Source of the DNA: Paludibacter sp. | GTDB taxonomy: Bacteria > Bacteroidota > Bacteroidia > Bacteroidales > Paludibacteraceae | DNA: 64,000 nt | Direction: 5' to 3' | NCBI GenBank assembly: GCA_010365115.1 | Contig: JAAFGX010000011.1 | Coordinates: 1 to 64,000, forward strand | Part shown: positions 14,498-56,799 of the stretch, in pieces | Position numbering within the stretch: position 1 is the stretch's first letter | How the letters are laid out: every line of letters starts with the position of its first letter | Translations under genes and position numbers: made by a program | The notes under the pieces: model-generated | Database searches by the model: none | What the model was told of the DNA's origin: nothing | The model's input: only the letters and a program-made list of their open reading frames with translations

Positions 14498-14565
14498 CAA
14501 AGATAAAACATTGGTAAGGCATAACAAATCGTAAACGTATCATTTTTATTGCTATTTTGTAACAT
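14498..14565 (-). promoter_or_regulatory. locus operator and promoter, site A
   Basis: Read on the minus strand there is ATGTTAC (14559-14565) and, 22 bp on, ATGATAC (14537-14543). A gap of exactly 31 bp follows, then the -7 box TATCTTTG (14498-14505). A TTTG lies inside the gap where a -33 box is expected. It drives the amidohydrolase-to-RhaT unit. Confidence 0.72.
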
Positions 14566-14589
14566 GAAGTGCTTAATAGTCTATAAACA

Positions 14590-14629
14590 CCAAAACTAAA
14601 ATAGGTATTCAACATATTTTAGTTTTTGG
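14590..14629 (-). terminator. hairpin downstream of the UroD gene at 14696
   Basis: Arms CCAAAACTAAAATA (14590-14603) and TATTTTAGTTTTTGG (14615-14629) pair with one bulged base. The hairpin lies between the stop of the UroD gene and site A, so it separates two transcription units. Confidence 0.6.
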
Positions 14630-14695
14630 AATAGAAAAATATTATAACTCAGAAACGAATAACACAACTTTTGAGAGCATCGATTTCAGTGTTTT

Positions 14696-15829
14696 TCAGA
14701 ATAATTTTGCCAAATTTACAGCATCCACCTTTTCTTCTTCTCCTTGAATTGATAAAATTTTATCATCAATTACTTCGATTAGGCTTCCAGCTTCACGGTA
14801 CATCGCCAAAATATTTTCCAAGGGCGATCCTGCTTGTATGGCATGTGAAGGTCCTAAAAAGAGTCCACCAGTTGGAAACAAATCCAACCTACGACGAACT
14901 TCTTTACGAACCTCATTCGGTGTGCCAAAAGCTATTTCTTTCTGAACATCCATCGAACCTTGAAAAAATAATTTATCTCCAAAATTCCGTTGCAATACGG
15001 CTATGTCCATATCGGGAGTGGTGGGCTGCACTACATCCTGAATATCGAGTCCAAGTTCAATTAATCTAGGAAGAAATTCATTCACAGTTCCACACATGTG
15101 CATCATGGCTTTTGCACCATATCGGTGTACCATATCAAAGTATTCCTTAAATTTCGGTGCAAAATAAGTTTCAAAAAGTTCCATGCTAATCATTGGGCCA
15201 CGTTGATTACCAAGATCTTCGCCAATGTGCGTAAAATCAATTAAGCCTCTGGCAGCTTGCAAAACTCGTTCGTGCATGTCGTAATAAAACTTAAAGCGTT
15301 GATTCATTATTTCGATAAACGCTTCATTGTCAGTCATCATATCAATCATCACTTCCTCCATGCCTTTTGCACGAGAAATGCTATTAATAAAATCCATATC
15401 GCCAGCACCGCCAAAACACACAGCATATTCGCCATTAATTGCTTCACATTGTTCCCGAATTGTTGAGTAATCGAACCAATCGGCACTCGGAAAATGAGAA
15501 CGGTCTAACTTATCCAGCGTGTCAATTCCTGCAAACGGTTGATAGCAGGATTCCATGTATTTGCCAGTGCCAAATTCCATGTATTTGTAGCGTTCGCCCC
15601 AGTAACCTTCAAAACTTCCATCTTCAAAGGTTTTCAATTCTGGTCCTATGTAAATCGCTTCTACATAACGAAAATCATCACCGACTACTTTTAGTAATTG
15701 ATTCATGTTTGTTAATCCAAAATGTTCCATTATGAGGTGATTAACTTCAGGTGTTCCTTCGTGTTTAATAGGAATTCTATCATACCCTGTTCTTTTATAA
15801 GCACTTAATACTCTTTCTCGTGAATTCAT
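14696..15829 (-). CDS. UroD-family protein, putative corrinoid methyltransferase (a)
   Basis: This 377-residue protein fits the uroporphyrinogen-decarboxylase superfamily in length and layout. It has the HxCG metal motif seen in methyltransferase members (H244-M-C246-G). At the place where MtaA-type enzymes have PGC it reads GPSHAIQAGSP, so the third ligand would be His. True HemE differs in its N-terminal Arg motif and is normally placed with haem genes. It is followed by a terminator and preceded at 56 bp by a second UroD paralogue. A role as the substrate-side methyltransferase for a methylated glycan component or its product is inferred. Confidence 0.75.
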   Translation of the reverse strand: MNSRERVLSAYKRTGYDRIPIKHEGTPEVNHLIMEHFGLTNMNQLLKVVGDDFRYVEAIYIGPELKTFEDGSFEGYWGERYKYMEFGTGKYMESCYQPFAGIDTLDKLDRSHFPSADWFDYSTIREQCEAINGEYAVCFGGAGDMDFINSISRAKGMEEVMIDMMTDNEAFIEIMNQRFKFYYDMHERVLQAARGLIDFTHIGEDLGNQRGPMISMELFETYFAPKFKEYFDMVHRYGAKAMMHMCGTVNEFLPRLIELGLDIQDVVQPTTPDMDIAVLQRNFGDKLFFQGSMDVQKEIAFGTPNEVRKEVRRRLDLFPTGGLFLGPSHAIQAGSPLENILAMYREAGSLIEVIDDKILSIQGEEEKVDAVNLAKLF

Positions 15830-15885
15830 AATATTATTTTTTTATAATGAAACAAAATTTTATTGAGATTAAAAAAATGAACACT

Positions 15886-16974
15886 TTATATTGTTTCCAA
15901 TTCCTTTACTGCTTCGAATAAAGCCAGCACATTTTCTACGGGCGTATCGTCCTGAATATTATGGGCAGGAGCTAAAATATAGTTTCCTTTCTCACCCAAC
16001 AAGGCAGCAATACGCTTCACTTCCGATTTAATATGCTCGGGAGTTCCGTTTGGTAATAAATCCTGAACACAGATAGCACCAAAGAAACCGATTTTACCTT
16101 CAAAATTTTTCTTAATATTTTCAGCATCCATATTTTTCGCCATTGGTTGCAGCGGGTTCATAAAATCGAGTCCTAAATCGATAAATTTGGGAATAATAGG
16201 AACAATAGAACCACAAGAATGCCATGCTAACTTGATATTCGGATTGGCAGCACGAAAAGCAGTAAACATTTTTCGGATGCGTGGTTCAAAATACCGATCG
16301 AACATTTCTGGGCTCATTATCAGACTATTTTGCGAACCAAAATCATCGCCAGCCCAAATCATGTCAACACCACACTCTATCAATCGAAGTCCAGTTTTGG
16401 TAGAGATATCAGTAACTTTATCCAACAGAGCATCCACATAAGGTTCTTCCATCATCATATCCATCAGCAGTTTTTCCAAACCCACGAGGTACCATGAAAT
16501 TTCGTAAATGGCACATTCCAAATCGCCAATTATTCCGAAATCCTTTCCATATTTTGCTATTGTTTCTTCGGCAAATCTGAATCGTCCGGGCGCATCTACT
16601 TCGGGAAAAGGATAATTTTCAATTTCCTCCACCGTTTGAACATTTGCCAACGGATGAATGGCAAAATCATCGTACAAACCATGTGGTTTTGTGCCAATTC
16701 CCCATTCGTTTATCGTAATTCCATCTTCCCGCAAAACAGGCTGCCCATTATCGGGAAAACAAGCAGCCACACCAATAGCATCTACTCCCATTCCAGTAAG
16801 CATATTGTTGAATGAAATACGGCTCCCGAGCAATGACGAAACAGGTTCTTCGTAAGGAACACCCAAATGTGAACTCAACCTTTTTGCCAACTGAGGAACC
16901 AAGCTTACATATAGTGGTGGACGATCGGTTAATTCACCATTAATAGTTTTTACAAATCTTTCTCTATGCGACAT
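15886..16974 (-). CDS. UroD-family protein, putative corrinoid methyltransferase (b)
   Basis: This 362-residue paralogue of the neighbour at 14696 has HSCG (H252, C254) and, at the third-ligand site, APAHNIQDDTP. It shares the barrel layout and the HxC...H ligand pattern with its neighbour, and differs from the 451-residue protein at 1445. Two adjacent UroD genes may encode a heteromer or two substrate specificities. It follows the sugar-isomerase gene by 29 bp within the unit that starts at 25661. Confidence 0.75.
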   Translation of the reverse strand: MSHRERFVKTINGELTDRPPLYVSLVPQLAKRLSSHLGVPYEEPVSSLLGSRISFNNMLTGMGVDAIGVAACFPDNGQPVLREDGITINEWGIGTKPHGLYDDFAIHPLANVQTVEEIENYPFPEVDAPGRFRFAEETIAKYGKDFGIIGDLECAIYEISWYLVGLEKLLMDMMMEEPYVDALLDKVTDISTKTGLRLIECGVDMIWAGDDFGSQNSLIMSPEMFDRYFEPRIRKMFTAFRAANPNIKLAWHSCGSIVPIIPKFIDLGLDFMNPLQPMAKNMDAENIKKNFEGKIGFFGAICVQDLLPNGTPEHIKSEVKRIAALLGEKGNYILAPAHNIQDDTPVENVLALFEAVKELETI

Positions 16975-17846: not shown

Positions 17847-17854
17847 CCGCAAAT

Positions 17855-18681: not shown

Positions 18682-21600
18682 TTAATTTTCTGTTTCAATT
18701 TGAACCGGACCTAGTAATCCTGCTGGTTGGAGAGGTGCATCTTTTACCCAATCAGATGGAAAAGTCATCCATGTATAAGTTTTGGTTGCATTCGGTTGTT
18801 TGTCACCTACAATGCGGTTCAGCCAAGGATTCGTTACAAAAATTTCTATTGTATTTTCGCCTTTTTTTACTGCTTTTGAAATATCCAATCTATACGGATA
18901 GCACCAAACTGCACCAACTGATTTTCCATTGATATTTATGCGAGCTAATTTTTCTACTCTCCCTAAATTGAGATAAACAGGCGAAGAAAGACCGCCCGAA
19001 TAATTAAATTTTGTAGTGTAAGTAGCTGTACCACTGTAATATTTAATTGCCGGATTGGCATTTGTGGTCCAATCAGTCAGTGTTTCAAAAACTATATTTG
19101 CAGGAGCATCCAATTTAGTGTTGAACGATACGTTCCACTTTCCGTCAAGTGTTTGAACAACAGAATTTTCTACAAAATTATTTCCTTCGGTCTTGTTGCC
19201 TGCTTTATTTCTAAAAACAACAAAGAATGCGTCTGTTTCGTTGAATTGCAAAGGAATAAAAGTCATCCCATTTCTTTCGGAAAATTCTGGTAATACTTTG
19301 ATTTCAGCATTGACTGCATTCCATAATTCGGGTTGCATACCGCTTACATTAAAGCCAAACTCACCTTTATAGGCTTTCGTTGTTTGATTGGTAATATAAT
19401 AAATATCTGTATTTCCATCCTTTCGGTGTGTATAATTAAACTGGTCAGGCAACACGATATCTGCATTTATTTTCAATCGATTAAAAGCTTCTACGAGACT
19501 AATATTGCGGAAAATTCGTCCATTGCCAACCTTTGCTTCGGTTATTTCTATTCCATCCACATTTCCCCATAGTTCCTTGGCCATTTGTTTCACTTGTTGG
19601 TCAGCTTGCGGATAATTCTGTAAACTTGGCGATTGCGTTGGAGGATTTCCTAAAACGGTAGCCCCAGCATTTACTAATTCACTGATTTTACGCAACACCT
19701 CAGGTCGCATTGTTTTCAATGCTGGCAATACTAGAATATTATAACTAATACCAGACTTCAACACAATTTTTCCATCCTTTACTTTTGCATCGCGCAACAG
19801 AATTTCAGCATTTACATAATCATAATCTCTTCCTTCGGGCAATGCTGGATTCAATGTACCCGATTGTTTAGGTGTATCCTCGCCCAAAAAGTACAGAATA
19901 TCAGCTACATGCAAACCACTTTGCAATAAAGCACTGGAACGTTGAACATAATGAAAATACGGTTTGGCTTCGAAAAACCAAGTGTTATTTCTATTTAAAT
20001 CCGTTCCGAACCAAGCATTTACACCCGGACCTTTATCATATGGTTGATGAATATATAAATGAAAAACAAAGTGGTTGATTCCTTGCGAAAACGACCAATC
20101 GCCCAATGATTTAAGATCGCGGGGCATTTGAGTATAGTTCCAATGCGAAGTAAATGCTTCGGCAGAGGTTTTGTTTTTTCCATAGATATTGGCGCAAGAA
20201 GAAGCAATTCTGCACTCCGAAGGACCGAGATCTAAGGAAGAGTTCCAAAACTCACCACCAACTTCATCCAACGCACCACCGTACATCAGCGACTCACCTG
20301 GATAACCGAAACCATAATTTTCGCCCCACAACTTCATTCCATCTTTATGTGCTTTTTCACGCAATCCGGTTACATATTCTGTGGCAATCATATTGGCTAC
20401 TATTCGGCGTAAATCCCAAAGAAAACGATCTGATTTTTCTGCACTTTCCACTACTCGACCTGTTAGCACAGGAAACCAAGGTTCGGGATCATATCCGTAC
20501 ACTTTTTTCCAAATTTCAGTCATTCCATCCGTCCAGTTTTGCGGACCTTGTTCAAAACTATCCATCACCACATGACGCAAAGCAGTACGATCTTTTTTAG
20601 GAATACGTCTGATTATTTCGCCCACAAAATTATCATAATGAAATTCCGTGTGTTTTTTATTCATTTTATCAATCTCAAAACCTTCAGCTTCAGGAGTTAC
20701 TGGACCATTTTTGGATCCTGTTGGAACCATTCCAGTTCGCACTATTGTCCAATCGCCTTCGGGAGCATCCCAAATTAAACGACCATTTTTATCCACTTTG
20801 TCGGTAATGTTAAGTACGGTTGATTGATTTACATTCAACTCTTTCGATTCGGGTTCAGTTGAATTTTTCCATAAATACGTATCCCATGAAATATTGGGAG
20901 TAGCACTCATTTTTGCCAATTGTTTTTCATTGTAATCTTCAATTAAAGCAGCACTTCCCAATTCAATTTCGGAAATACAACCAATGGCTTTATTTTTTGT
21001 CAAATCAATCCAACCTAACAACGGACCTCCATCGGTAATTACCACGCGGAGTTCATTTGTTTTAATCACTGGAAATGTTTCCACAATATCAGCAAACATC
21101 TTAGGGCCGCCCTTTTGATCCACAATTTGACGATCAATTTTTTTGCGAAATATTGTTTTCCAATATTTATTGTAATTTTTGTATTGTACTTCGATATAAG
21201 CATTCATGGGCACTTCCGAAGGCACAAGACGCATACTTCTAATTTCCTCCGTTTTATCTAGCAGAATATCAATAGTCACCGGATAGGAGTGGAACGAAAC
21301 ATAAGTTTCTTTTTTATCGTCAAAAAGCAACTCAGGTTGAGCCAGATTAGGAGTAGAAGTAACCGAACGAATAGATTTATTAATGTTGTGTTGATCGTTT
21401 TTAGGGGTTTTAAAGGCTTGTACTACTACTTGCTGAAAGTCTTTAAAGGGAGTTTCCAATTGAATGTTGATTTTTTGATTTCCTTTCACTTCGATTTCCG
21501 AACTGTTCAAATACCGCATTGTTTTATCCGCAGTTACCCACGGACCGCCAGACATGGACCATCCCGGACAATTAAACATCCCCACTTTAATGCCTATTCT

Positions 21601-21930
21601 TTTTGCTTCGCGGATAGCATGTTCCATTAATTGCCACCATTTTTCGCTTAACACCAACACGTCACCTTGCTTCACATTCTCATCGTTTACATTCGATATA
21701 AATGCCTCGCCTATACCTACTTTATGCATGGCTTCCAAATCTTTGGTAATTCCTTCTTTGGTAATATTGCCGCTTATCCAATACCAATAAACCCACGGCT
21801 TAGTAGCTTCTGGTGGATTTCTAAAATCTGCTTCAATATCTGCTGCCTTTATTGCAATAGTATTAAAAATAATGGCAATAAAAACGATTAAAAATTTCAA
21901 TCCTCTTTTCATGATTTCTAGATATTTCAT
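18682..21930 (-). CDS. alpha-L-rhamnosidase, GH106
   Basis: This 1082-residue secreted protein matches the GH106 layout. The start is the ATG at 21930; an internal ATG at 21912 would give a tidier signal peptide (MKRGLKFLIVFIAIIF). The N-terminal FRNPPEATKPWVYWYWISGN and GIKVGMFNCPGWSMSGGPWV are characteristic of the family barrel. WGENYGFGYPGE and DEVGGEFW carry candidate catalytic acids. The C-terminus (about 960-1082) is a galactose-binding-like beta-sandwich ending NTIEIFVTNPWLNR. GH106 enzymes remove alpha-L-rhamnose, often from pectic or algal side chains. It complements the GH78 enzyme at 5100. Confidence 0.9.
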   Translation of the reverse strand: MKYLEIMKRGLKFLIVFIAIIFNTIAIKAADIEADFRNPPEATKPWVYWYWISGNITKEGITKDLEAMHKVGIGEAFISNVNDENVKQGDVLVLSEKWWQLMEHAIREAKRIGIKVGMFNCPGWSMSGGPWVTADKTMRYLNSSEIEVKGNQKINIQLETPFKDFQQVVVQAFKTPKNDQHNINKSIRSVTSTPNLAQPELLFDDKKETYVSFHSYPVTIDILLDKTEEIRSMRLVPSEVPMNAYIEVQYKNYNKYWKTIFRKKIDRQIVDQKGGPKMFADIVETFPVIKTNELRVVITDGGPLLGWIDLTKNKAIGCISEIELGSAALIEDYNEKQLAKMSATPNISWDTYLWKNSTEPESKELNVNQSTVLNITDKVDKNGRLIWDAPEGDWTIVRTGMVPTGSKNGPVTPEAEGFEIDKMNKKHTEFHYDNFVGEIIRRIPKKDRTALRHVVMDSFEQGPQNWTDGMTEIWKKVYGYDPEPWFPVLTGRVVESAEKSDRFLWDLRRIVANMIATEYVTGLREKAHKDGMKLWGENYGFGYPGESLMYGGALDEVGGEFWNSSLDLGPSECRIASSCANIYGKNKTSAEAFTSHWNYTQMPRDLKSLGDWSFSQGINHFVFHLYIHQPYDKGPGVNAWFGTDLNRNNTWFFEAKPYFHYVQRSSALLQSGLHVADILYFLGEDTPKQSGTLNPALPEGRDYDYVNAEILLRDAKVKDGKIVLKSGISYNILVLPALKTMRPEVLRKISELVNAGATVLGNPPTQSPSLQNYPQADQQVKQMAKELWGNVDGIEITEAKVGNGRIFRNISLVEAFNRLKINADIVLPDQFNYTHRKDGNTDIYYITNQTTKAYKGEFGFNVSGMQPELWNAVNAEIKVLPEFSERNGMTFIPLQFNETDAFFVVFRNKAGNKTEGNNFVENSVVQTLDGKWNVSFNTKLDAPANIVFETLTDWTTNANPAIKYYSGTATYTTKFNYSGGLSSPVYLNLGRVEKLARININGKSVGAVWCYPYRLDISKAVKKGENTIEIFVTNPWLNRIVGDKQPNATKTYTWMTFPSDWVKDAPLQPAGLLGPVQIETEN

Positions 21931-21947: not shown

Positions 21948-24900
21948 TTATTCCTTAATTATTACTTTTTGATTTATTCCATTTTTATTCTCAACTTCAA
22001 TCAAGTAAGCACCTTTGGCATAACAACTTAAATTCAAGGTGAAATTTCCATTTTCAACAGATTTTGAATAAATGATTCCTGTAATTGACATAATTGTAAC
22101 GTTGAACTTTTCGCTTTCATCATCCGTACAGTCAAATTTTACGAAAGATTTCACCGGATTGGGATATGCGTTAAAGTGTTGTCGGGTAGATGCATCTAAT
22201 TTATCAGTGGCGTTCTTATACATAATAGTGGCATTAACCGCTTTACTTTCGCTGAAATTATCTTTCACTTTAAAATATATTTTCTTTTGACCTGGGTTGG
22301 CACTTAAACTATATGAAAAATTTACATTATAATTTTGCCAACTGGCATCAGAGAAGTCCTCTTTTTCACTAATTATGAATGCTGTTGGAACTCGTCCCGC
22401 AACTTCATTTGTGACAGAAATAGTATTTTTTTCAGTAAACACATTTCCATTGTCCAGTTGAAAATTGGTAACTTCCAGATTCCCAAAAATACTAAAATCA
22501 GTATCAGTGGTCAACAATGGGTCGTCAAATTTTGTAGCCAAGGTTGTTCCTTTTCTTAAATCGAAGGCGTAAATATGAATTTTACCCGCATCGGTATGTC
22601 CAAAAACAGGCATGAATTTCAATTCCATAATTTTATCTCTCCACGTAGGTTCAATACCAATTGGATACGTATATTCACGGTATTGATCGTCGTTTGGTAC
22701 AATCGGTAACAATATCGCATTAGTTTCTGTATAGTCGGTTTTGTCAGTTTTCCAATACAATTTTGCAAGCGACGAATTGGTTTCGTTTTTCATAACAAAA
22801 TGCACTTGATGCAAATTGCTGAAATTCAAATTCATGGGTTTGCTTGTCATCAATACAGGATTTTCGTCCGTCAGTCTGGCATGAAAACCTAATTGGTCAA
22901 CTACACATTTTTTCAACCCCGAAACCACAACCAATGCACTATCTGCTTTAAAATCAAAAACTTTTGTTCCATACTGATTTCTCATGGGTGTTCTCGGCAC
23001 AGATAACCGTTTCAAATAAGTTGGAATTGCTTTTACCGTTTGATTATTGCCATCAACCAATCTGTACATTCCGCTCGGATGTGGTTCAAACATTGCTTTT
23101 CCTGAAGAATAAACAGTCACATCAGAAACCTCGAGATATGATCCGTCAGCAACACGTTTTTTTAATTTCAACGTACTGTTCGCTTGTCCTCCAACCGTAA
23201 GTATACAAAACGGTTTTAATGCCTCTATCTCTTCCATCTTTGGGTCAACATCCGCATCACCTGGCTCTGTAACAAAGGAATACATTCTACAAGCCGGTAA
23301 ATTGTTAGTTCCTAAATTCACAAACGCACTTCCTGTTTTTGCTTTCAAAGTCAAGCGATATGAAGAGGCATTCATCGCATTAGCAATGGGAATATTGAAC
23401 CAATCGTTATCTTGTGGCATGAAATACTCTTTGGTGGTAACTACCTTGTTTTGTCCAAAAACAGTAGCCGTAACAGTCGCTTCAATATTTACGTAACCCG
23501 TAGTTGCCGGGCTCACATTTACAGCAATGGAACTTAAGGGAGAACCATTAACGGGCGAAAAATCATAGGTGTAAATTGAACTTAAAGACGCTTTTTTATT
23601 GGCAGCCGTATCGTTGAACAAAGCCACTTTTTCTTGCCAATCGTTAGCTGGAACATAATTGATTTCCATTGATTTAAGTGTCTCTACACCATCTTTCATA
23701 TCGGCAATTTCAATTTCAACCAAATCATCGGCTCCACTGTTGGCGGATTTAAAAGTCCAACCAGTATCTTTCAATGAAAATGTTTTCCATGCGCCTGTAT
23801 TTGTTTTTTTTACAGTTGCAATTTCACTTAGTCCCGTAGATAATTTTCCATACACTTTAAATTGGTCTAATCCCTGATCCAGGTAATCGAAAGTCAAAAC
23901 TGCACCATACATTCCATTGTATCTTAACCTATCATCAATACTTATGCTGATTCTATCTTTGGCAGAATTTGTTTGAACAGCTTTTTGACCGTTGATAGTT
24001 ACGTAAGTATATTTCGTGCCCGGATAATCATCTTTTTGGTAAAGTCCTAGCCATACATTTTTCAATATAAACGTTTTCATGGCTTTAGGTGAATAATAAT
24101 CGTTACGACTGAACTGATTATACAATTTAGTTATTAAGGCAGAACCAGCCATTTCGTTGGCATAATGTTGGTAACGATTGATATACGTTTGACTTAAATC
24201 GTTATCGTACATCCAAAAATAATCGACATTGTCGACAAGCAACCTGTTGAACAAACTAATGGGATGACCCATATATTCCGAAAAAGTGTCATTATTGATC
24301 TGAGCTTGCTCTTCATAATAAACACTCACATTCTTGTCGTATTTATGTCTATTGGCGATGTATTGGAAACCAGAATTTACAGATCCCCATTCGGTACTCA
24401 TCGATTGCCAACCGTTGTATTTTATGGCAACACCATTATGTGCAGCATACGTTCCAACTTTCCAATCGATTAAATTTTGGTCGCGCCAAGCCTCAGTATT
24501 CCAACCTACAGCGCCTGTAAATAGTTTTTTTGTAGTGAAATGTTTTTTATACGTATCAATGCACCATTTAATATGATCGAAATAATTTTGATTAGAATAA
24601 CCATAAGTTGTCCATTGATCTTCGAACATATTAGGATCATCGCCGCTGATAGTAATTTCTTCCCAACGTCCATAACCATTTATAGCAATTTCATTCAGCG
24701 TTTCTTCGTTTTTGTATCTTTCTGCAACAGCCTTTATAAACAATTCATATTTCTCCTTAAAAATGGGATCAAAATAGTTGGGGAAACACAAAGTTCCAAT
24801 CCAATACCCAGTTACCATATCGCAGATATTAATATTATCTATCGTCAGGTTACCACTTTTAATAATAATCTCCACTTTGTAATCGTCCGAAAGAGGACTA

Positions 24901-25734: not shown

Positions 25735-25801
25735 CAAAGATAATCAGAGAAAATTGATATCAAAATTGTAAATGTATCATATAAATGTCTTTTTGTAACA
25801 T
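25735..25801 (-). promoter_or_regulatory. locus operator and promoter, site B
   Basis: Minus strand: ATGTTAC (25795-25801), ATGATAC (25774-25780, 21 bp away), a 31-bp gap, then the -7 box TATCTTTG (25735-25742). TTTG lies 18 bp before the -7 box, a good -33 match. It drives the unit from 25661 to 14696. Confidence 0.74.
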
Positions 25802-41483: not shown

Positions 41484-41487
41484 ACTA

Positions 41488-42450: not shown

Positions 42451-42506
42451 AACTAAAATATATTATATTATTGGTCAATTGATTAAGCTTTTCAAGAGAA
42501 ATTTTA

Positions 42507-44240: not shown

Positions 44241-44267
44241 ATCAGCAATTATTAGCAATAATTTTAA

Positions 44268-47114: not shown

Positions 47115-47141
47115 AATAGTAGAATCTTTATATTGTTTTAA

Positions 47142-48971
47142 TTACCACCCCGGATTTTGAAGCATTTTGGATTTCTGAACTTCCTCAAGAGGCATAGGGT
47201 ATAAATAAAATTTATTTGAGAAGAAGCGAGGATCACCCATTGGTTTCTTAGTGTAAATCGGAGATGCAGCCGATCCGGTTACGTCCATCATATACATTTG
47301 GCCACCAATATAACCATCTCCCATCTTCCAACGTTTCAGGTCGAAATAACGATGTTCTTCAAAAGCAAGTTCAACAGCTCGTTCTCGTTTAATACGATCA
47401 CGCATAAATGATTGCGTATCTTGAAATCCAGGAATTGATTCGATATTTGGTTGACCGGCTCTATTTCGAACAGCATTTATCATGGTGCGGATATATTGTT
47501 TATGACCATTGGGGTCGTATTCGTTCCATGCTTCGGCCGACATTAAATACAACTCGGCAAGGCGGATGTAAGGCCAAAAACAATTATGGAAAGAAAGTTC
47601 GCCTGTTACTTCCTGATCTTTTATGAATTTTGAATAATAATATCCTGTAAAATTACCAAAATTTCCAGCTGGTGGTCTATTATTTCCTTTGTCATCAGCT
47701 GTTCTGAAAGTCATATCAACGGTAGGTTTAGAATTCCCTTCGAGTTTGTAATTATGATAAAACATGCTTCCCGAAAAACGTGCATCCAAATTGTCATAAG
47801 GATTTGGTGTATCAAAGAGGGTAGGTGATTGGTCAGATCCGTTGGTCATTTCATAATTATCCACGAAGTTTTGTAAGGGTATGGTGGAGCATTGCACCGA
47901 AGCTAATAAGCCTGTACCCACTTTTCCCCAAGGAATTCGGAAATAAACTCCCCAATTGTTTTCGTTCCAAGTTTTAGTTAAACGAGTGCCCCATATGATC
48001 TCGGTATTTTTGATCGGATCGTTAGGAAAATAATACACACTGGCTTTATAGGCATCTTTAAAACTATTTACTCCATTATCTCCTTTTTGAATTAGTTTGT
48101 ATCCATTTGCCAATGCCAAATTTAGTGCTTCGTCGGTTGCTTCGGCAGCTGTTTTCCATCTTTCTTTGCTATAAGTTGGATATTTTATCAAGTCCTGATT
48201 ACTGAAAGCAGGAAAATAAGATTGATTATCTTCGGGGTTAAACAGCGGACTCGCAGCCCACAACAACGTACGTGCTTTTAACGTCATAGCTGCAATTTTA
48301 TTAATTCGTCCAAATTCCAGCCCTTCGGATTTAATTGGGAGGTCGGGTATAGCTTTATCCAACAGACTGTTGATTGAATCCACCGATTGCGAAATGGTCA
48401 ATCGTTCGGTTGAATACGTTTCACCAAGTTTAGTATAGCCTGGTACCCAAGCTAGGCCACCGTAGCGTTTAAAATTCTCATATTGTTTGGTTGCAACAAA
48501 CGCCCTGGCTTCTGCTTTTCTTATTCTAATAATTTCAGGTGTTCCATCTTTTACTCTATCCACTTTATCGATATAAAGGTATGCACTTCGAATAGCCTGA
48601 TAATTAAACATCCATTTATCTTCCAGATATGGATATTGTAAATTAGACGACAAAGTACCTTTCGTATAAAACTCAAGAGCTTCTCTATCCCAAGTATTTG
48701 ATTGCGTTTCGGCCTCATCACAAATGTTGCTTGTATTGTGATTCATTAAACGGATAGCATAATTCCAGTTACCATCGCTTGACATGTAAGTAGAAAAACC
48801 CCAAGGGGCAAATGCGTAAGCAGCAGCAAGTACTTTGTCAGCCTCCTTCATTGATCCAAATACAACATCTTCGGTAAGTCCACTTGCATCGGGTCTTTCC
48901 AAAAAATCGTTGCACCCTGCAATGGCTACAATAAAACTAATTAAAGTTATTTTTGCAATTTTATGTTTCAT
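47142..48971 (-). CDS. SusD/RagB-family outer-membrane lipoprotein (first copy)
   Basis: This 609-residue lipoprotein has C20 in its lipobox (VAIAGC) and begins NDFLERPDASG. SusD-family marks include AALYLMSAEAWNEY-like helices (LAELYLMSAEAWNEY) and the C-terminal RERAVELAFEEHRYFDLKRWKMGD, ending LYPMPLEEVQKSKMLQNPGW. It pairs with the SusC gene at 49067 (gap 95 bp) and precedes the second SusC gene by 27 bp. Confidence 0.93.
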   Translation of the reverse strand: MKHKIAKITLISFIVAIAGCNDFLERPDASGLTEDVVFGSMKEADKVLAAAYAFAPWGFSTYMSSDGNWNYAIRLMNHNTSNICDEAETQSNTWDREALEFYTKGTLSSNLQYPYLEDKWMFNYQAIRSAYLYIDKVDRVKDGTPEIIRIRKAEARAFVATKQYENFKRYGGLAWVPGYTKLGETYSTERLTISQSVDSINSLLDKAIPDLPIKSEGLEFGRINKIAAMTLKARTLLWAASPLFNPEDNQSYFPAFSNQDLIKYPTYSKERWKTAAEATDEALNLALANGYKLIQKGDNGVNSFKDAYKASVYYFPNDPIKNTEIIWGTRLTKTWNENNWGVYFRIPWGKVGTGLLASVQCSTIPLQNFVDNYEMTNGSDQSPTLFDTPNPYDNLDARFSGSMFYHNYKLEGNSKPTVDMTFRTADDKGNNRPPAGNFGNFTGYYYSKFIKDQEVTGELSFHNCFWPYIRLAELYLMSAEAWNEYDPNGHKQYIRTMINAVRNRAGQPNIESIPGFQDTQSFMRDRIKRERAVELAFEEHRYFDLKRWKMGDGYIGGQMYMMDVTGSAASPIYTKKPMGDPRFFSNKFYLYPMPLEEVQKSKMLQNPGW

Positions 48972-49066
48972 AATATCTATTATTTATCGACTTATTTTGT
49001 GGTTAACTTTTTTACAATTTTGTTTTTTGATTTTAAATTGTATCCAATCATTTAAAATTATTTGAA

Positions 49067-52000
49067 CTAAAATGTAACATCAATTCCTAAATTAAATATT
49101 TTCATAATCGGATAATAGGATTCTACTCCACCGCCTCCCGACCATGCTTCCGGATCGTAATTTTTCATACGATCATCCAGTGTCCATGTTGCGAGATTTT
49201 GTGCGGTGATTGAAACACGTAAATTACTAATAGCTAACTTCGATGTTATTTGTTTTGGAATCACATATCCTACCTGAACATTTTTTAGACGAACATAGGT
49301 ATCATCGTAAGCCCAATAAGTGGAAGGTACAAAATTTGACGAACTTGCAGAAAATGTATGCAGAACCGGATAATTTCCGTTTCTATTATTTGGAGTCCAC
49401 CTATCGGATATCCAATCGAATACAGCTCCACGAGCACCTAACTTCTGCGAATATCCACTTGGCATATATATCATTCCGGTTACACCTTGGAACAATAACG
49501 AAACATCGAAACCTTTATACGAGAAACCAAACGACCCGGCAAAATTTGTTCGTGGAGTTACCGCACTATAATCTAATGGAACTAAATCGTTATTGTCAAT
49601 TTTCATGTCTCCATTAATATCTTTGTATTTTACATCACCCGGAATTGGATTTGGACCATAGGTATTGTAAGGATTGTTCAAATTATTAATCTCAGCATAA
49701 CTATTCCAGTATCCTTCTGCTATTAAGCCTCTTGTCATTTGTAATGGTAAGCCCTGATTGTATAACCATGGATAGTCTTTACGAGATTCCGACAACAAAA
49801 CAGCTTTATTTTTGGAATAAGCCATTGTAAGTTTTCCAAAATAATTGAAATCTTTTCCAATGAAATCATTCCATCCCAATTCAATCTCTATACCTCTATT
49901 TTGTACTTTTGCATAATTTACAGGAGTTGTGTAGGATTTGGTGAGTGGTGAAGGACCCCAGGAATCAGGAAAATTTGGAAATAAGAAACCAGGTAATGTC
50001 TCCATATTTGTCAAGATATTATCGCGGTCTTCTTGAAATAAATCTAGCACAAGGCTTAATCTATCTTTAAAAAACTTGCTATCGAAACCGATATTTGTTT
50101 TCCTTGCGGTTTCCCATGTCACATTCTGATTAGCGGCAGATCCTTCTTGAACTCCTCGTATTCCGTTCGAACCGCCATAAATATTATTTCCTTCTCCAAA
50201 AAGACCTACATATTGTTCTGGGAAGTTAACATAATTTCCTGGGATATATAAAAACCTATTATTACCTATTCTATCACTACCCACTTCGCCGTATGAAGCC
50301 CTAAATTTAAACGAGCTTATAGCTTTCACGTTTTTCATAAATGGTTCATCGGTCAATAACCAACCTGCTGAGAATGCTGGAAAAGTTCCAAAACGTTGAC
50401 CTACCGGAAAATTTTCAGACCCATTTATACCCAAATTAAATTCAGCAAAATACCTACTTTTATAATCATAAGTTAACCTGCTCACAAACCCTATGTATGC
50501 TACTGGAACATCGGGAAATGAAGTTTCAAAATAATGTCGTTTTTCCTGATTGTAAAGTGCCAGTGCAGTTACATTGTGATTGCCAAAAGTTCGGGAATAA
50601 TTCAATGAAGTTTCAAAATAATATTTTTTCCGTTTATCAGGTGCTTGTCTGTTAATTATCATCTCGCCATCAAATCCAGATTTAATGGATATGGGTTCAT
50701 TGGTTACCGGATCACGGCCGATATCAACTCTGGCATGTGCTTGAGTAGTGTTAAACCAGCTTTCGGAATATGAATCAAAAGAAAAACGAGAAGCTACCGA
50801 AAGACCTTTTGTAATTTGATCTAAATCGTATTTTGCTGAGAACAAAGTATTTGCAGTTATTTGCTCACGTTTATACATTCCACCACTTTGTATGGCAACA
50901 AAAATTGGATAACCATCGGCTGTAGGTGTATTTGAAATAATCATATGTCCGTTTTCATTAAAACCTGGTGATGTCCAAGGCAGTGACATATACATTTGTG
51001 TCCAGAAAATATTGTTTCCCGGATTTCGAGCACCCTGTCTTTCTTCGTATCGAGCATCAATATTTATACTGGCCGAAAGACGTTTTGTAAATTGAAAGTC
51101 AAGATTCGAACGAACATTTGTACGATTGTATTTATTATTGGGATCAAAACCATAGGCGGAATTTTGCTTTACCAAACCCGACTCATCATAATACCCTGCA
51201 GAACAAAAATATTTTACTAACTCGCTACCACCACTAATGCTGAAATTATGAGATGATTTAGGTGAATAATCCAAAAGCATATACTTATTGATATTCATAT
51301 CTGGATACAATAAATCGTTTGTATGATATCTATAATTATTCATATCATCGTAACTCTTAATTTGCGGTAAACCATCATTGGAATTTGCCTCGTTTGAATA
51401 CCTTATGGTCTCATAGGAATTAAGGGTTTGCTTTAGACTGGTTGGATTCGATAATCCATAATTAAATGAATAGGAAACCACAGGTTTGCCGGTTTTTCCT
51501 CTCTTAGTGGTTATAATTATAACACCATTGGCTCCTTTCACACCATACACAGCAGTAGCCGAAGCATCTTTCAATACAGAGATGGATTCAACATCATTGG
51601 GATTAATTGCTTCCCAACCAGACACATTTCCCATTGTACCGCCCGAAATATCTTTTGGGTCTCCACTAGCTCTACCTCCACCGGTACGCTCTACGCCATC
51701 CACAATTACTAGTGGGCTTGCATTATTCAGTGTACTTACACCTCGAATATTGATACGAGGAGTTTCACCACCGGGAATGCCAGTTTCCTGAACCGAAACC
51801 AATCCATTCAGACGACCAACCATAGCATTTCCTAAACTCCCTTGTGGCGATTTTACCAAATCCTTCCCAGATGTGGTTGAAATGGAACCTACAACCGAAA
51901 CCTTTTTTTGTTGACCATATCCTACTACTACGACTTCGCTCAATGTTTTAGAATCTTCTTCTAATTGAATTTTCATCAACTTATTTTCTTCTACTTTTAT

Positions 52001-52306
52001 TTCTTGGTCTAAATATCCAATGTACGAAATTTTCAAAACAGATCCAATCGTGGCTTTCAGTTGAAAATTTCCTTCAACATTTGTTATCGTACCCAAAGTA
52101 GTTCCTTTAATTGTAATATTTGCACCAATTACGGCCTGTCCCTTTTCATCTATCACAATTCCTTCAACATTAACAGTTGAGGATTGAGCCTGAATTTGAA
52201 AAATTACAAAGCACGAAAAAAGCAATACAAAAAATGGCTTCCAACTAAAATACATTTTTTTCCTGTTAATCGAGAAAGATGACAGGTCATTTAAGTAATG
52301 ATTCAT
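49067..52306 (-). CDS. SusC/RagA-family TonB-dependent transporter (first copy)
   Basis: This 1079-residue protein is the first gene after site F. The start is the ATG at 52306; an internal ATG at 52255 would give a tighter signal peptide. It has a carboxypeptidase-regulatory-like domain (about 45-120; VEGIVIDEKGQAVIGANITIKG), the SusC box LSEVVVVGYGQQKK, a plug domain (IESISVLKDASATAVYG) and a C-terminal barrel ending LGIDVTF. It would import oligosaccharides with the SusD encoded next. The two SusCD pairs in one unit suggest two sizes or kinds of oligosaccharide. Confidence 0.94.
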   Translation of the reverse strand: MNHYLNDLSSFSINRKKMYFSWKPFFVLLFSCFVIFQIQAQSSTVNVEGIVIDEKGQAVIGANITIKGTTLGTITNVEGNFQLKATIGSVLKISYIGYLDQEIKVEENKLMKIQLEEDSKTLSEVVVVGYGQQKKVSVVGSISTTSGKDLVKSPQGSLGNAMVGRLNGLVSVQETGIPGGETPRINIRGVSTLNNASPLVIVDGVERTGGGRASGDPKDISGGTMGNVSGWEAINPNDVESISVLKDASATAVYGVKGANGVIIITTKRGKTGKPVVSYSFNYGLSNPTSLKQTLNSYETIRYSNEANSNDGLPQIKSYDDMNNYRYHTNDLLYPDMNINKYMLLDYSPKSSHNFSISGGSELVKYFCSAGYYDESGLVKQNSAYGFDPNNKYNRTNVRSNLDFQFTKRLSASINIDARYEERQGARNPGNNIFWTQMYMSLPWTSPGFNENGHMIISNTPTADGYPIFVAIQSGGMYKREQITANTLFSAKYDLDQITKGLSVASRFSFDSYSESWFNTTQAHARVDIGRDPVTNEPISIKSGFDGEMIINRQAPDKRKKYYFETSLNYSRTFGNHNVTALALYNQEKRHYFETSFPDVPVAYIGFVSRLTYDYKSRYFAEFNLGINGSENFPVGQRFGTFPAFSAGWLLTDEPFMKNVKAISSFKFRASYGEVGSDRIGNNRFLYIPGNYVNFPEQYVGLFGEGNNIYGGSNGIRGVQEGSAANQNVTWETARKTNIGFDSKFFKDRLSLVLDLFQEDRDNILTNMETLPGFLFPNFPDSWGPSPLTKSYTTPVNYAKVQNRGIEIELGWNDFIGKDFNYFGKLTMAYSKNKAVLLSESRKDYPWLYNQGLPLQMTRGLIAEGYWNSYAEINNLNNPYNTYGPNPIPGDVKYKDINGDMKIDNNDLVPLDYSAVTPRTNFAGSFGFSYKGFDVSLLFQGVTGMIYMPSGYSQKLGARGAVFDWISDRWTPNNRNGNYPVLHTFSASSSNFVPSTYWAYDDTYVRLKNVQVGYVIPKQITSKLAISNLRVSITAQNLATWTLDDRMKNYDPEAWSGGGGVESYYPIMKIFNLGIDVTF

Positions 52307-52378: not shown

Positions 52379-52446
52379 CAAAGATAATGTCGCCATTATG
52401 AATTAAAAATTCCAGATGTATCATTCGAAATGTCTTTTTGTAACAT
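52379..52446 (-). promoter_or_regulatory. locus operator and promoter, site F
   Basis: Minus strand: ATGTTAC (52440-52446), ATGATAC (52418-52424, 22 bp away), a 31-bp gap, and the -7 box TATCTTTG (52379-52386). It drives the SusCD unit through the beta-helix genes. Confidence 0.75.
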
Positions 52447-52681: not shown

Positions 52682-55600
52682 TTAATCAGTTTTATTCAAG
52701 CTTCGTATAAATTCATGAATAGTCATTCCAAATCTTGCTTTGAAGTTTTTGTTAAAATGAAAACTGCTGTTTAAACCAATCATAAGCATTACGCTTTCAA
52801 TATCTCTTTCTCCTTTTTCAAAGTACCGTTTAGCTTCGTCTAATTTTATTTCACGAATATATTCTGAAGTAGATTTTCCTAATAAAGCTCCAATTTTCCG
52901 ATGAAGTTGCATACGACTTATACTTATTTTTTCACAAATAAAGTCGATACTAAATATCGGATTTTCTAAATTATCAAGTATTATCTGATTCATTTGATTT
53001 AAAAACTGCTGTTCTCTATCTACAATTTTCACCTCTTTTGACTCACTTTCTGTTTGTTTTTTTCCTGATAAATTGCGAACATAATTATTTACTTTCAAAA
53101 CAAGTGATTTAGTTGAAAAAGGTTTTGAAATAAAGTCTTCGGCACCAGCTTCCAACGCTTTTATTTCTTCATAATCATCAGCTTTAGCAGTTAAAACAAT
53201 AATTGGAATATGACTTGTTCGATAGTCATTCCTTATTAATCTAATCAAAGCAATACCATCTACTTGCGGCATCATCACATCTGTCAGAATAACATCCGGT
53301 GTATAGCGCAATGCTTTATCAAAACCATCCTGACCATTTATAGCTTGAATTACAGTGTAATTATTTTTAAAACTTTTAACAAGATACGAACGTAAATCAT
53401 CATCATCCTCCACTACCAAAACAATTGCTTTTTTACCTTCATTTACTGTATTAACTGTATCTTCTACTTCCTTTTCCTGCTCAATTTCCTCAGTCATTTC
53501 GGTATGAAATACTTCTGTTGGTATTTCACATGGTAATAAAACTACAAACTCAGTGCCCTCATTTAATTCCGATTTTGCCTCGATCTTGCCTTTACATAAA
53601 TCAACCAACTGCTTCACAAGGGCCAAGCCAATGCCAGTGCCCGAAGCTGATACCGATGAGGTAGACTGGAAAAACCGATCAAAAATATGAGGAAGGTCTT
53701 GATTTGAGATACCACAGCCTGTATCCTGCACTTTTATAACCAACATATTATTGTTTTGCTCTACAAAAACAAAGACATCACCTCCATTATCAGTATATTT
53801 AAAAGCATTTGAAATTAAATTATATAAAATCTTCGTAAATTTATCTACATCGAAAATTAAAAATTTATCGCTAATATCTATTATAAATTCGAAGTGTATT
53901 TTTTTAGATGCAGCAATGCCATCGAATGATTTTTTTATATCATTGAAAACACTTGACACCACATGAACGTCTGGATGTAATACACTACCATCGTTCAATA
54001 ACCTTCGAAAATCTAAGAATTGATTTACTAAATAAAGCAACCGGGTTACATTTTTGTCGACTATGCCAATTCGATCATTCAAAAAAGGATTTGTCACAAT
54101 AATACTATTGTGTTTAATATCTTCCAATGGGCCAGCAATAAGTGTAAGCGGAGTTCTAATATCATGAGCTATATTGGTATGAAATCGAAGACGAATATTA
54201 TTTATTTCGGTTTCATGTTGGTTTTCAAGCTCTTTAATTACTAATTGTTGTTTCAATTTTGTTTCACGACTTAAATAGCGATATACAACATACATAATCC
54301 CTAGAATCAATAAAAAATAGGCAGAATATGCCCAAATAGTTAACCAAGGAGCAGACTTTACGACAATAGTTAAGTATCGTTTTTCACCTCCCCAAACATT
54401 TTCGTTGTTCGATGCTTTAACCCAAAAACGATATTTGCCTGGTGGCAACCGATTGTATATAACAGTTCTGTTTTTACTATCTGTCGTTATTGAATCTTTA
54501 TCAAATCCTTCCAACTGATATTCATAAGCATTTTCATCAAAATCGTTATATTGAGTCGCTAAAAAATGTATGTTTATATTATTTTCATTATATTTTAATA
54601 CAATTTTTTTTGTTTCGGTAAGTGGCTCAGATAATTTTTTTGATAAATTAGGGTCACTTTTAATAGAACGACCTGAAATTGTAATATCAGTAATCTGTAC
54701 GTTCGAAAGAAATGGATTATGTGGTTGTGGGCTAGTATTGATAACATTGAGTCCATTGATAGTGCCCACGTAAAGCAAACCGCTATCCATATACATACCT
54801 TCGAGGGCTGCATTGGCATATAAACCATTCGAAATGGTGTATTTTTTTTCTTTACCAGTTTTATAATTATAACTAAACAACGCTTGCGAAGTACCTGCCC
54901 ACAAACTATTTGATTTATCTTCTATCAACGACATTACTTTGTTGTTCCCAATTTTTTGTAACTCGTTAAGTGGACTAACAATTAAATTATTTCCTGAAAC
55001 AACACATTTATTCAACCCTGAGTCAGAACCAAACCAAACCGAAGAATCGGAAGCTACAATTACCGACCATACATGATTGCTGCTCAAGGAGTTTTCTTTT
55101 TTATTGTGTTGAAGGTATTTGATTTTCTGAACTTTACCCGATTTGTTTAAAAAAATGGCTGCTACACCATTATCTTTAGTACAAGCCCAAATCATATTAT
55201 GAATTTTATCATATTTAATACGACTTATTTGCTCTGATGAAAGCATATCCGACAAGTTTCCAATAGAAATAAATTCGTTTTTAAACTTTTTATCATTCAG
55301 GTATATTCGTATCAAACCGTTTGCACAACCAATCCAAATACTATTATAAGCGTCTATTTCCAACGAAAACGGACTGTTTAGTTTAATACTTTTAGGGTAA
55401 AGTTGCTCGAAAGGAATAAGCTGATTCGAAGTATAATCGTAACAGAAAATCCTGGAATTTATTGAGAACCAGATTTTACCGGTTTTGTCTTCTACAATAG
55501 AAGGTGAAATAAGTATAAATTGCGGTGGTATTCCCGGCACAACTATCGATTTTATAATACCATTTGTATCATAATAGAACAACCCCTGATAGTTAGTACC

Positions 55601-56704
55601 AACCCAAACTCTTTCATGGCTATCTTTGAAAACCGATTTTACAAACATACCCTCGGTCCCTGGTATTTTACTAATAATTTTAGGTATCTGATGTAAATCT
55701 AATTTTGCAATGCCTTTTTGTTGTGAAGCAATCCAAACATTTTTAGTTTTATCAACTAAAGTAGAATTAACCATATTGTTGTTAAAAAAAGAATAGTTCG
55801 AAAACTTTAGTTCTTTAATTATTTTTGTTGGCAAATGTAGAATATAAACCTTTTGCATTGAGAATACAATATAATTATTAGGATCAACTTCTGTAATCGT
55901 TCTTATATTCCTTTCGCTAAAACCATTAAACAATATTAAATCAGTCGGTTTCACTACACCTTTTAGGTTTAAATTGTCGTTCGACAAATAAAAAAGACCT
56001 TCAGTGCTGCAAATCCAAATTGTTTGATTGTGATCCTTAAATACAAGATTAATCACCAAATTGCTTAAGAATTTATAGGGCGAAAAGACTTGTCCACCTT
56101 TGTTCGTTAATAAAATTGCACCTGAAGTTGTTCCTACAATTAAACCCTGTTTACTATTTTCAACTACAGAAGTAACATAATTTTCTAAACCAGGGTTACT
56201 CGAATTTAAAAAAACACTTTCAACTTCGAATCGATTTTCTTTTTTTGAAGTTTTATACAAACCATTAGTTGTTCCAATCCAATAGTTATTATTAGTATCG
56301 TTGTAGAATACAGTAACTATGGAATATTTTAGAGGGTCAAATTCAAAATGCTCAAACTGGTCGGTTCTATAATTATACTTATCAACAGCACCATTCTCCG
56401 TTACTACCCATAAATTTTCATCTTTATCAATATACAATTCTATAACTCTGTTACCACTTATCGATGATTTAACGTATGGATTATGACGATACTTTACAAA
56501 ATCATTACCATCGAATCTATTTAAACCATCGTAAGTACTAACCCAAATAAAACCATACCGATCTTGCACAACCTTACTTGTAGTAAATTGAGACAATCCT
56601 TCGTTTACAGAAAAAGTCTTTATATTAAATGTTTGATCGAAATTAATTGCATTACAGTATAGTGATATAATGACATTTACAAATAATATGACGTTTTTTT
56701 TCAT
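52682..56704 (-). CDS. hybrid two-component system sensor/AraC-type regulator
   Basis: This 1340-residue protein combines sensor and regulator. The order is: signal peptide (about 1-19); periplasmic two-component-propeller sensor blades (about 25-690, many GxIWVSTxxGL-type repeats); Y_Y_Y domain (about 700-782); membrane segment (about 785-808); HisKA with H847 in NIAHDIRTPLT; HATPase with DTGCGIS and GTGIGLALV; receiver with D1142 in LTDVMMP; and a C-terminal AraC-type helix-turn-helix (about 1250-1340). All phosphotransfer residues are present. Such proteins sense glycan oligosaccharides and activate the adjacent locus. Its own promoter carries a variant of the shared operator (56732-56799), suggesting autoregulation. 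Confidence 0.95.
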   Translation of the reverse strand: MKKNVILFVNVIISLYCNAINFDQTFNIKTFSVNEGLSQFTTSKVVQDRYGFIWVSTYDGLNRFDGNDFVKYRHNPYVKSSISGNRVIELYIDKDENLWVVTENGAVDKYNYRTDQFEHFEFDPLKYSIVTVFYNDTNNNYWIGTTNGLYKTSKKENRFEVESVFLNSSNPGLENYVTSVVENSKQGLIVGTTSGAILLTNKGGQVFSPYKFLSNLVINLVFKDHNQTIWICSTEGLFYLSNDNLNLKGVVKPTDLILFNGFSERNIRTITEVDPNNYIVFSMQKVYILHLPTKIIKELKFSNYSFFNNNMVNSTLVDKTKNVWIASQQKGIAKLDLHQIPKIISKIPGTEGMFVKSVFKDSHERVWVGTNYQGLFYYDTNGIIKSIVVPGIPPQFILISPSIVEDKTGKIWFSINSRIFCYDYTSNQLIPFEQLYPKSIKLNSPFSLEIDAYNSIWIGCANGLIRIYLNDKKFKNEFISIGNLSDMLSSEQISRIKYDKIHNMIWACTKDNGVAAIFLNKSGKVQKIKYLQHNKKENSLSSNHVWSVIVASDSSVWFGSDSGLNKCVVSGNNLIVSPLNELQKIGNNKVMSLIEDKSNSLWAGTSQALFSYNYKTGKEKKYTISNGLYANAALEGMYMDSGLLYVGTINGLNVINTSPQPHNPFLSNVQITDITISGRSIKSDPNLSKKLSEPLTETKKIVLKYNENNINIHFLATQYNDFDENAYEYQLEGFDKDSITTDSKNRTVIYNRLPPGKYRFWVKASNNENVWGGEKRYLTIVVKSAPWLTIWAYSAYFLLILGIMYVVYRYLSRETKLKQQLVIKELENQHETEINNIRLRFHTNIAHDIRTPLTLIAGPLEDIKHNSIIVTNPFLNDRIGIVDKNVTRLLYLVNQFLDFRRLLNDGSVLHPDVHVVSSVFNDIKKSFDGIAASKKIHFEFIIDISDKFLIFDVDKFTKILYNLISNAFKYTDNGGDVFVFVEQNNNMLVIKVQDTGCGISNQDLPHIFDRFFQSTSSVSASGTGIGLALVKQLVDLCKGKIEAKSELNEGTEFVVLLPCEIPTEVFHTEMTEEIEQEKEVEDTVNTVNEGKKAIVLVVEDDDDLRSYLVKSFKNNYTVIQAINGQDGFDKALRYTPDVILTDVMMPQVDGIALIRLIRNDYRTSHIPIIVLTAKADDYEEIKALEAGAEDFISKPFSTKSLVLKVNNYVRNLSGKKQTESESKEVKIVDREQQFLNQMNQIILDNLENPIFSIDFICEKISISRMQLHRKIGALLGKSTSEYIREIKLDEAKRYFEKGERDIESVMLMIGLNSSFHFNKNFKARFGMTIHEFIRSLNKTD

Positions 56705-56731
56705 AATGATTGATTAATACATAGTATGTTG

Positions 56732-56799
56732 CAAATATACAAATATAAATAAATCAGATACAGCCCAAACGTAACATAATTTTTTAATTAATGTAACAT
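56732..56799 (-). promoter_or_regulatory. locus operator and promoter, site G (variant, autoregulatory)
   Basis: Minus strand: ATGTTAC (56793-56799) and a second ATGTTAC (56771-56777), 22 bp apart, then exactly 31 bp and the -7 box TATATTTG (56732-56739). Here the proximal heptamer is ATGTTAC rather than ATGATAC. The sensor gene starts about 28 bp downstream. Confidence 0.65.

Follow-up and report, generated by a model that had tools for sequence, protein, structure and literature searches.

How the many genes of a large glycan locus are brought under common control is the question raised by a 64,000-nucleotide stretch of Paludibacter sp. DNA (assembly GCA_010365115.1, contig JAAFGX010000011.1, positions 1 to 64,000), the whole of which is called the window here. 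An earlier note on this DNA proposed that seven promoters across a glycan locus of about 56 kb carry one shared operator of fixed geometry, and that an AraC-type regulator encoded in the same locus controls all seven units through it. The present analysis supports this view. On the evidence of sequence comparison, the seven sites are very probably the operator of the hybrid two-component system (HTCS) regulator encoded at 52682-56704 on the minus strand, an attribution supported by the association of such operators with the regulator family and by a link to its recognition helix. Binding, activation and induction by this HTCS are predicted on the same basis.

Seven paired sites and their rarity

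Direct reading of the minus strand confirmed seven direct-repeat sites where they had been placed, together with their heptamers. The distal heptamer is ATGTTAC in six of the seven (TTGTTAC in 35157-35185) and the proximal heptamer is ATGATAC in six (ATGTTAC in 56771-56799). The spacing of 21-22 bp between half-sites also holds, with a period of 22 bp at five sites and 21 bp at two, and in 7/7 promoters the proximal heptamer is followed after 31 bp by a -7 box of the form TAnnTTTG, as had been claimed. The probability that all seven would fall at one fixed distance is roughly estimated at ~4e-21, using the TAnnTTTG rate of the same gaps with the seven boxes themselves left out. As direct repeats with about 21 bp between tandem sites, these elements have the form of HTCS-type operators.

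The pattern ATGWTAC-N13..16-ATGWTAC-N30..32-TANNTTTG was searched over the 4.79-Mb assembly, where its exact form matched six times, always inside the window, and the reversed-pattern control did not match at all. In a fixed-gap search the seven window sites carry 0-1 mismatch, the seventh site having one. Outside the window, two fixed gaps with up to three mismatches returned one site with a single mismatch (C41:11341) and three sites with three mismatches, against one and three matches for the reversed controls. Many matches elsewhere in the genome had been named beforehand as the outcome that would speak against the proposal, and this genome-wide scan found no such abundance. Heptamer pairs alone, at up to three mismatches, match the chance level for one gap (11, where shuffles average 10) and lie slightly above it for the other (16 against 9.9, a level reached by 4 of 100 shuffles). 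The evidential strength lies in the near-perfect copies and their geometry, loose heptamer pairs being weak evidence.

The position of the sites relative to genes is equally consistent. One operator lies in each of the seven longest intergenic gaps (1897, 493, 375, 369, 260, 244 and 210 bp), and none in the other 24 of the 31 (at most 106 bp). Therefore every probable transcription unit, that of the regulator included, starts behind one. Between them, the seven promoters appear to serve a gene set of 56 kb for the use of a rhamnose-rich polymer.

The regulator and rival explanations

The regulator had been described as a locus-encoded protein of AraC type, and the domains of a Bacteroidota HTCS were found in its 1340 residues from Pfam, the translation and an AlphaFold2 model. 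Pfam identifies, above cut-off, a Reg_prop/Y_Y_Y periplasmic propeller in the sensor half, HisKA, HATPase_c and Response_reg in the same chain, and an AraC-type helix-turn-helix (HTH; Pfam HTH_18) at the C-terminus. The AlphaFold2 model of a 251-aa fragment containing the receiver and DNA-binding domain (DBD) has a pLDDT of 91.8 and shows two HTHs, with helices 164-171/175-186 and 213-220/225-236. The first recognition helix contains SRMQLHRK; the model puts this motif at the beginning of helix 175-186, which is the second helix in the first HTH. By sequence, the best-matching solved chain is 12aw, named as an HTCS protein. Foldseek against the PDB gave mostly receiver domains among the best 50 matches listed and nothing on DNA binding, and among the best 25 of 169 NCBIfam matches no model was above cut-off. 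Two SusC-like and two SusD genes lie directly downstream. The receiver sequence carries a SHIP motif; this S/CHIP class of motif occurs in most HTCSs and has been reported with an inhibitory receiver-DBD contact (PMC11253607). Here and below, the literature covered consists of passages of PMC3878776, PMC11253607, PMC12125979, PMC10994844, PMC7366714, PMC5061871, PMC10766802 and PMC6989115, of which PMC12125979 concerns a XylR-type regulator.

Operator and regulator also occur together outside the genome holding the window (G000). The exact pattern was found in only two of 48 genus genomes, G000 and G002, and in 358 family genomes there was one further match (G399), with 30 bp instead of 31. 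A search of 199 genomes with the whole HTCS, which scored three candidates per genome, gave matches at E<=1e-150 only in the same two. The G002 ortholog is 60% identical to the window HTCS, and the operator precedes its gene with a period of 21 bp and a register of 32 bp to the -7 box. A second copy stands before the gene after the HTCS, which is 64.5% identical to the window susC over 200 residues, and a third lies ahead of a separate locus whose genes include GH39 and SusC/D. Conservation of the operator with its cognate HTCS was thus found in one other species only.

Within the window's own genome, a Reg_prop family search was too weak to list HTCSs and a receiver-DBD query was used instead. 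Six HTCS-length proteins match it, the closest on contig C16, which is 42% identical to the window HTCS over receiver and DBD and carries the same SRMQLHRK helix. The operator before its susC reads ATGATAC-N14-TTGTTAC-N31-TACATTTG, and the C16 locus (L016) includes a sulfatase gene and GLAA-B genes up to 35% identical to those of the window. Some observations weigh against the attribution as proposed. This paralog, with the same helix and a similar operator, makes cross-talk possible, and the geometry was found at 0/28 HTCS own promoters elsewhere, so that autoregulation of the HTCS gene through the operator in front of it, which the window would imply, is of an unusual form. An operator shared jointly by the two proteins, as two glycan sensors sharing or cross-talking on one regulon, would accommodate the common helix, the related C16 operator with its -7 box 31 bp on and the related GLAA-B genes. 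Yet the second HTH sequences and the second sub-boxes differ between window and C16, and the C16 site is three mismatches from the window pattern, which makes joint ownership unlikely.

Explanations that dispense with an HTCS fare worse. The consensus of the CRP-family global regulator BT4338/Cur, wwwTATGTTnTAnAACATAwww, also contains ATGTT, and BT4338 controls carbohydrate genes in Bacteroides (PMC6989115). However, the 14 half-sites depart from its palindrome TATGTTnTAnAACATA at 5-10 of 14 positions, the best Cur-like sites in the seven gaps have 3-5 mismatches, a degree of similarity often seen across the window, and the window repeat is direct, not inverted, unlike the Cur site. A global regulator would moreover be expected to act genome-wide, and the pattern searches found no such spread. 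A site of the BT4338/Cur type was rejected because the palindrome is absent from the window half-sites, and we consider it highly improbable that the boxes belong to a regulator of this kind. The repeats might also have arisen in AT-rich promoters by chance or for structural reasons, or be a mobile repeat, no regulator being involved, and loose heptamer pairs with up to three mismatches do indeed barely exceed chance in the window, if at all. However, near-perfect copies of fixed geometry occur almost only here in the genome, each in a separate long gap, and are kept in G002; in other genomes the box tracks a single recognition helix, with nothing from permuted cores. Genome rarity, gap placement and the helix link led us to reject this reading, which is barely credible.

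One site outside the window resembles the seven closely. At C41:11341-11407 (L015) lies a near-perfect operator with one mismatch, a period of 21 and a register of 31, whose -7 box ends 30 bp upstream of a sulfatase open reading frame (ORF). It is possibly an eighth unit of the window regulon, or part of that of the C16 paralog. The assembly is listed with 7.2% contamination, and membership of C41 in the same genome is therefore uncertain.

Half-sites, recognition helix and family spacing

Alignment of ten sites, seven from the window and three from G002, shows a nearly invariant heptamer followed about 11 bp on by a weaker second box. The full half-site is ~17-18 bp long, which matches the length expected for a two-HTH AraC domain. 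The proximal half-site occupies the interval from 38 to ~21 bp ahead of the -7 box, which includes the -33 region if that element lies at its usual position, as we assume for the window promoters. The description of two direct half-sites two turns apart therefore stood, but their placement just upstream of -33 did not, since the proximal half-site overlaps it. This is the arrangement of AraC-type class II sites, with the proximal half-site over -33. The proximal register is constant, while the half-site spacing shows a variation of 1 bp. TTTG at the normal -33 distance occurs in 2/7 promoters only; such poor -33 elements fit activation by a bound regulator but prove nothing.

A possible course of activation can be put together from these elements. 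A glycan-derived oligosaccharide would bind the periplasmic propeller sensor, the kinase would phosphorylate the fused receiver and the AraC-type domain would be freed. The two DBDs of an HTCS dimer would then occupy one half-site each in head-to-tail orientation, on a single face of the DNA and separated by two helical turns. Within each half-site, the first HTH would read (A)TGWTACA and the second the weaker CAWTT-like box ~11 bp on. With the proximal half-site covering the poor -33, the bound regulator would take the place of that element and bring RNA polymerase to the -7 box, in the manner of AraC at araI1-I2. An HTCS triggered by the oligosaccharide would thereby switch on seven units, its own gene among them.

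The same geometry recurs at other HTCS loci. A scan of named genomes gave 80 HTCS loci across Bacteroidota, in which promoters were scored in a sequence-free way, by comparing 16-bp blocks ahead of TAnnTTTG near gene starts for direct-repeat identity. A first version of the scan covered 86 loci (these 80 and six from G000/G002), 212 candidate promoters and a 40 x 17 position-period grid. Its maximum lay at period 21 and an offset of 37-38 bp, with 27 promoters at 38/21 having at least 9/16 identities against a grid mean of 6.7; the offset in the window is 38. At offsets 34-42 in the 86 loci, 26 promoters passed at period 21, compared with 5.0 in shuffles and 3.2 in coding controls, and 13 passed at period 22. 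Period 31 equalled the latter with 13 promoters in this version and had 4 genes in the 80-locus version. Over the 80 independent loci, 67 of which have a usable promoter, 24/169 genes showed period 21/22 at offset 36-39, as against 0-8 for 17 control period pairs. The geometry is commonest close to the regulator gene (12/34 genes within 600 bp, 3/29 at 0.6-3 kb, 6/37 at 3-6 kb and 3/41 beyond 6 kb; adjacent versus beyond 6 kb, Fisher p=0.0035). Other HTCSs have different repeat sequences in the same frame, and so the family shares the frame, not the word. A shared spacing regularity across HTCS loci is well supported as a pattern in the genomes scanned. Three of the HTCS loci (L059, L065 and L070) came from records titled Calditrichia, Williamsia and Rickettsiales, which are probably mislabelled or mixed bins, or cases of transfer.

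The idea that the helix foretells the box arose from the C16 paralog and from an HTCS of Maribacter halichondriae (L094). Both share SRMQLHRK at the first HTH with the window HTCS, and all three have WTGWTAC repeats. L094 has HTCS-labelled genes at 8014 and 13901, and the gene immediately after each of them has a TTGTTACAT-type operator in this geometry. The WTGWTAC prediction was written before 395 class genomes were searched with a codon pattern for RMQLHRK. Eighteen places were found, comprising the window and C16, four frames not of HTCS type, which were dropped (L120, L132, L133, L134), and 12 real loci. Five of the 12 followed the written rule, which allowed at most one heptamer mismatch, and four of those had an exact -7 box. 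The core TGTTACA was picked after this first look, and wider flanks were read after the misses. In 3-kb regions, TGTTACA with an exact -7 box was present at 5/12 loci and at 4/5 earlier helix-bearing ORFs, as against 0/90 HTCS-labelled ORFs without the helix; permuted cores in this first sample had a mean of 0.08, one of them reaching 4/12. A second sample of 296 genomes gave ten new places, of which four were dropped (L138, L139, L140, L146) and six were real. Two of these six met the rule, and a third (G987) had one mismatch in its -7 box.

With the wider flanks, an operator was found in 11/15 RMQLHRK genomes versus 1/78 loci without the motif (Fisher 2.6e-10), the flanks being ~20 kb or more for 12 of the 15 and 3 kb for G650, G987 and G997. 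All 12 matches in helix-positive genomes have period 21 and register 31 or 32. Slid copies of the motif were the best-scoring permutations in the second sample and were therefore left out of the final test, in which 40 permuted cores gave 0 in the 15 helix-positive genomes. Some of these genomes are related, G681, G987 and G997 belonging to one genus, G450 and G650 to one and G530, G562 and G700 to one; counted by genus the operator is present in 7/10, and by family in 3/4. Neither the 15 nor the 78 include L046, which has the helix and no operator, or L094, which has an operator at each of its two HTCSs. Of the 78, only L067 gave a match, and its helix, SRVHLHRK, is nearly identical; two loci with SRSQLHRK (L061 and L085) showed no operator in the stretch scanned.

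Sensor type is a confounder in this comparison, because the 78 controls are propeller-type and most positives are TPR. By Pfam, the sensors of ten helix-positive proteins comprise seven TPR, two propeller HTCSs and one broken frame (G783, interrupted by a stop, of which only the DBD piece was scanned). As a check, 20 loci were fetched by similarity to a TPR-type protein, blind to the helix. Those with RMQLHRK had the operator in 2/5 cases (L198 and L200, and not L202, L207 or L208), and it was found at 0/12 with other helices, including SRMQLYRK and SKMQLYRK, and at 0/3 unclassified. Three of the 12 control proteins, assigned by Pfam, comprise one TPR and two periplasmic-binding-protein sensors. 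These similarity-matched loci alone give p=0.07, and with the earlier short-frame genomes added the comparison is 7/10 versus 0/12 loci (p=7e-4). Propeller-type new genomes stand at 3/5, with L046 counted, versus 1/78 (p=4e-4). L198 (G1140) is a TPR-sensor hybrid kinase with RMQLHRK, and its locus of 20 kb has three TGTTACA-type operators with period 21 and register 32, another small regulon of the window's kind.

Several results tell against a simple correspondence between helix and box. The helix occurs with no operator in the stretch scanned in G637, G676, G1097, L046, L202, L207 and L208, and the -7 box of G987 is imperfect. The GAF-bearing helix-positive proteins (L152, L202, L207, L208) have the operator in 0/4 cases, and the helix is therefore a strong but not sufficient predictor. 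A Mantel test of operator against DBD similarity over 22 loci (two of 24 were dropped, having several HTCSs each) was null, with a rho of 0.08 and 820/5000 permutations as high, so that the link is shown for one helix class and not generally. The helix-box link is thus supported for one helix, with clear exceptions. A wider reading would be that Bacteroidota hybrid kinases of AraC type, with propeller or TPR sensors, work in a rigid promoter frame in which the recognition helix of the first HTH largely dictates the sequence of the box. We give this general form an even chance, having earlier rated it a little higher and lowered it because of the sensor confounder and the misses. The same balance applies to its particulars, in which half-sites would lie 21-22 bp apart, the proximal box 31-32 bp before TAnnTTTG, and SRMQLHRK or SRVHLHRK would correspond to TGTTACA.

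The predicted regulon and known systems

The genes behind the seven operators form a minus-strand run from 56704 to 362. It holds the HTCS, two SusC-like/SusD pairs, proteins with type IX secretion system (T9SS) tails, a GLAA-B (GH110-like) enzyme, rhaM, GH106 and GH78 rhamnosidases, an FGE-domain protein, URO-D, B12-binding, methionine-synthase-activation and CobW proteins, and RhaT. All operators and -7 boxes are on the minus strand, each box 31 bp from its operator. Operator 1 (56771-56799; ATGTTAC-N15-ATGTTAC, period 22), with -7 box TATATTTG at 56732-56739, precedes the HTCS gene itself. Operator 2 (52418-52446, period 22; box TATCTTTG at 52379-52386) stands before the susC/susD/susC/susD run (ORFs 35296-52306), and operator 3 (35157-35185, period 22; box TACTTTTG at 35118-35125) before a T9SS-tail protein (32932-35085) and 31700-32908. 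Operator 4 (31488-31515, period 21; box TAATTTTG at 31449-31456) leads into two T9SS-tail proteins (30419-31330 and 28510-30312). Box TATCTTTG recurs at the other three: at 28052-28059 for operator 5 (28091-28119, period 22), before the GLAA-B/GH110-like gene (26274-28016) and rhaM (25906-26220); at 25735-25742 for operator 6 (25774-25801, period 21), before 21948-25661, GH106 (18682-21930), PhyH and two URO-D genes (to 14696); and at 14498-14505 for operator 7 (14537-14565, period 22), before the 362-14435 run with an amidohydrolase, the GH78 rhamnosidase, B12-type genes, CobW, URO-D and RhaT.

From this arrangement we infer that 31 ORFs, the HTCS among them, form a regulon of seven transcription units directed at a glycan that contains rhamnose. 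Encoded within 362-5068 and 14696-16974 are RhaT, CobW, three proteins of URO-D type, one B12-binding protein and one with a methionine-synthase-activation domain. The presence of corrinoid-type genes beside the GH78/GH106 rhamnosidases suggests corrinoid-dependent O-demethylation of a methylated rhamnose glycan. Four predicted regulon proteins of 878, 422, 159 and 320 aa (in 7903-10539 and 39725-42450) have no Pfam match and are candidates for new glycan-active proteins, the 422-aa protein having weak GDSL-esterase matches only. Upstream of the HTCS promoter, 56799-58602 forms 1.8 kb without an ORF of at least 100 aa and resembles decayed coding remnants. Near 57700, part of the minus strand resembles the beginning of what we take to be an AbiEii-type protein.

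Bacteroidota hold very many polysaccharide utilization loci (PULs), and most HTCS targets are unknown. The fixed -7 register offers a filter that needs no prior motif, and the helix-to-box link allows the box to be predicted from the protein sequence, which succeeded in most but not all genomes tested. If the link is true, a table of helix-box pairs would allow the regulon of an uncharacterised glycan sensor to be read from its protein sequence. The window operator, for its part, would define a compact one-sensor regulon for a rhamnose glycan, corrinoid-type genes included.

The nearest textbook parallel is AraC at araI1-I2 of E. coli, where direct half-sites lie ~21 bp apart and the proximal one overlaps the upstream promoter element. 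AraC is a cytoplasmic sugar-binding protein, whereas the regulator of the window is a membrane HTCS that would act at a promoter of the Bacteroidota -7/-33 type. MarA (PDB 1bl0) likewise has two HTHs per DBD, and its KWHLQRM aligns with RMQLHRK in a sequence alignment. The KWHLQRM helix of MarA contacts the first box, and MarA binds a single box as a monomer, unlike the window regulator with its predicted repeat operator.

Closer still are the HTCSs of Bacteroides thetaiotaomicron. Gel-shift data show that receiver-DBD fragments of BT0366, BT4124 and BT4663 bind PUL promoters, and BT0366 also promotes its own transcription (PMC5061871, PMC11253607); these are other regulators responding to other glycans, and the window HTCS is known from its sequence. 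The fixed -7 register and the helix-box link were not found in the literature searched, which comprised listings of papers and the passages named above, those of PMC3878776 included. A supplementary figure legend of PMC5061871 indicates that HTCS sites and -7 boxes are both marked in B. thetaiotaomicron, and others may therefore have noticed the register. Ravcheev et al. 2013 predicted motifs for 16 of 36 HTCSs of this species, all of them direct repeats with a mean of 21 bp, interpreted as dimers two helical turns apart (PMC3878776). HTCS direct repeats of ~21 bp are thus already published, and the window operator is of a known kind. The B. thetaiotaomicron operators are alike in placing two conserved direct sites, at a spacing of ~21 bp, ahead of susC/D and other PUL units, and in that one HTCS controls several units of a locus; unlike them, the window has seven copies serving one locus. 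Its operator is ordinary in kind and unusually clean.

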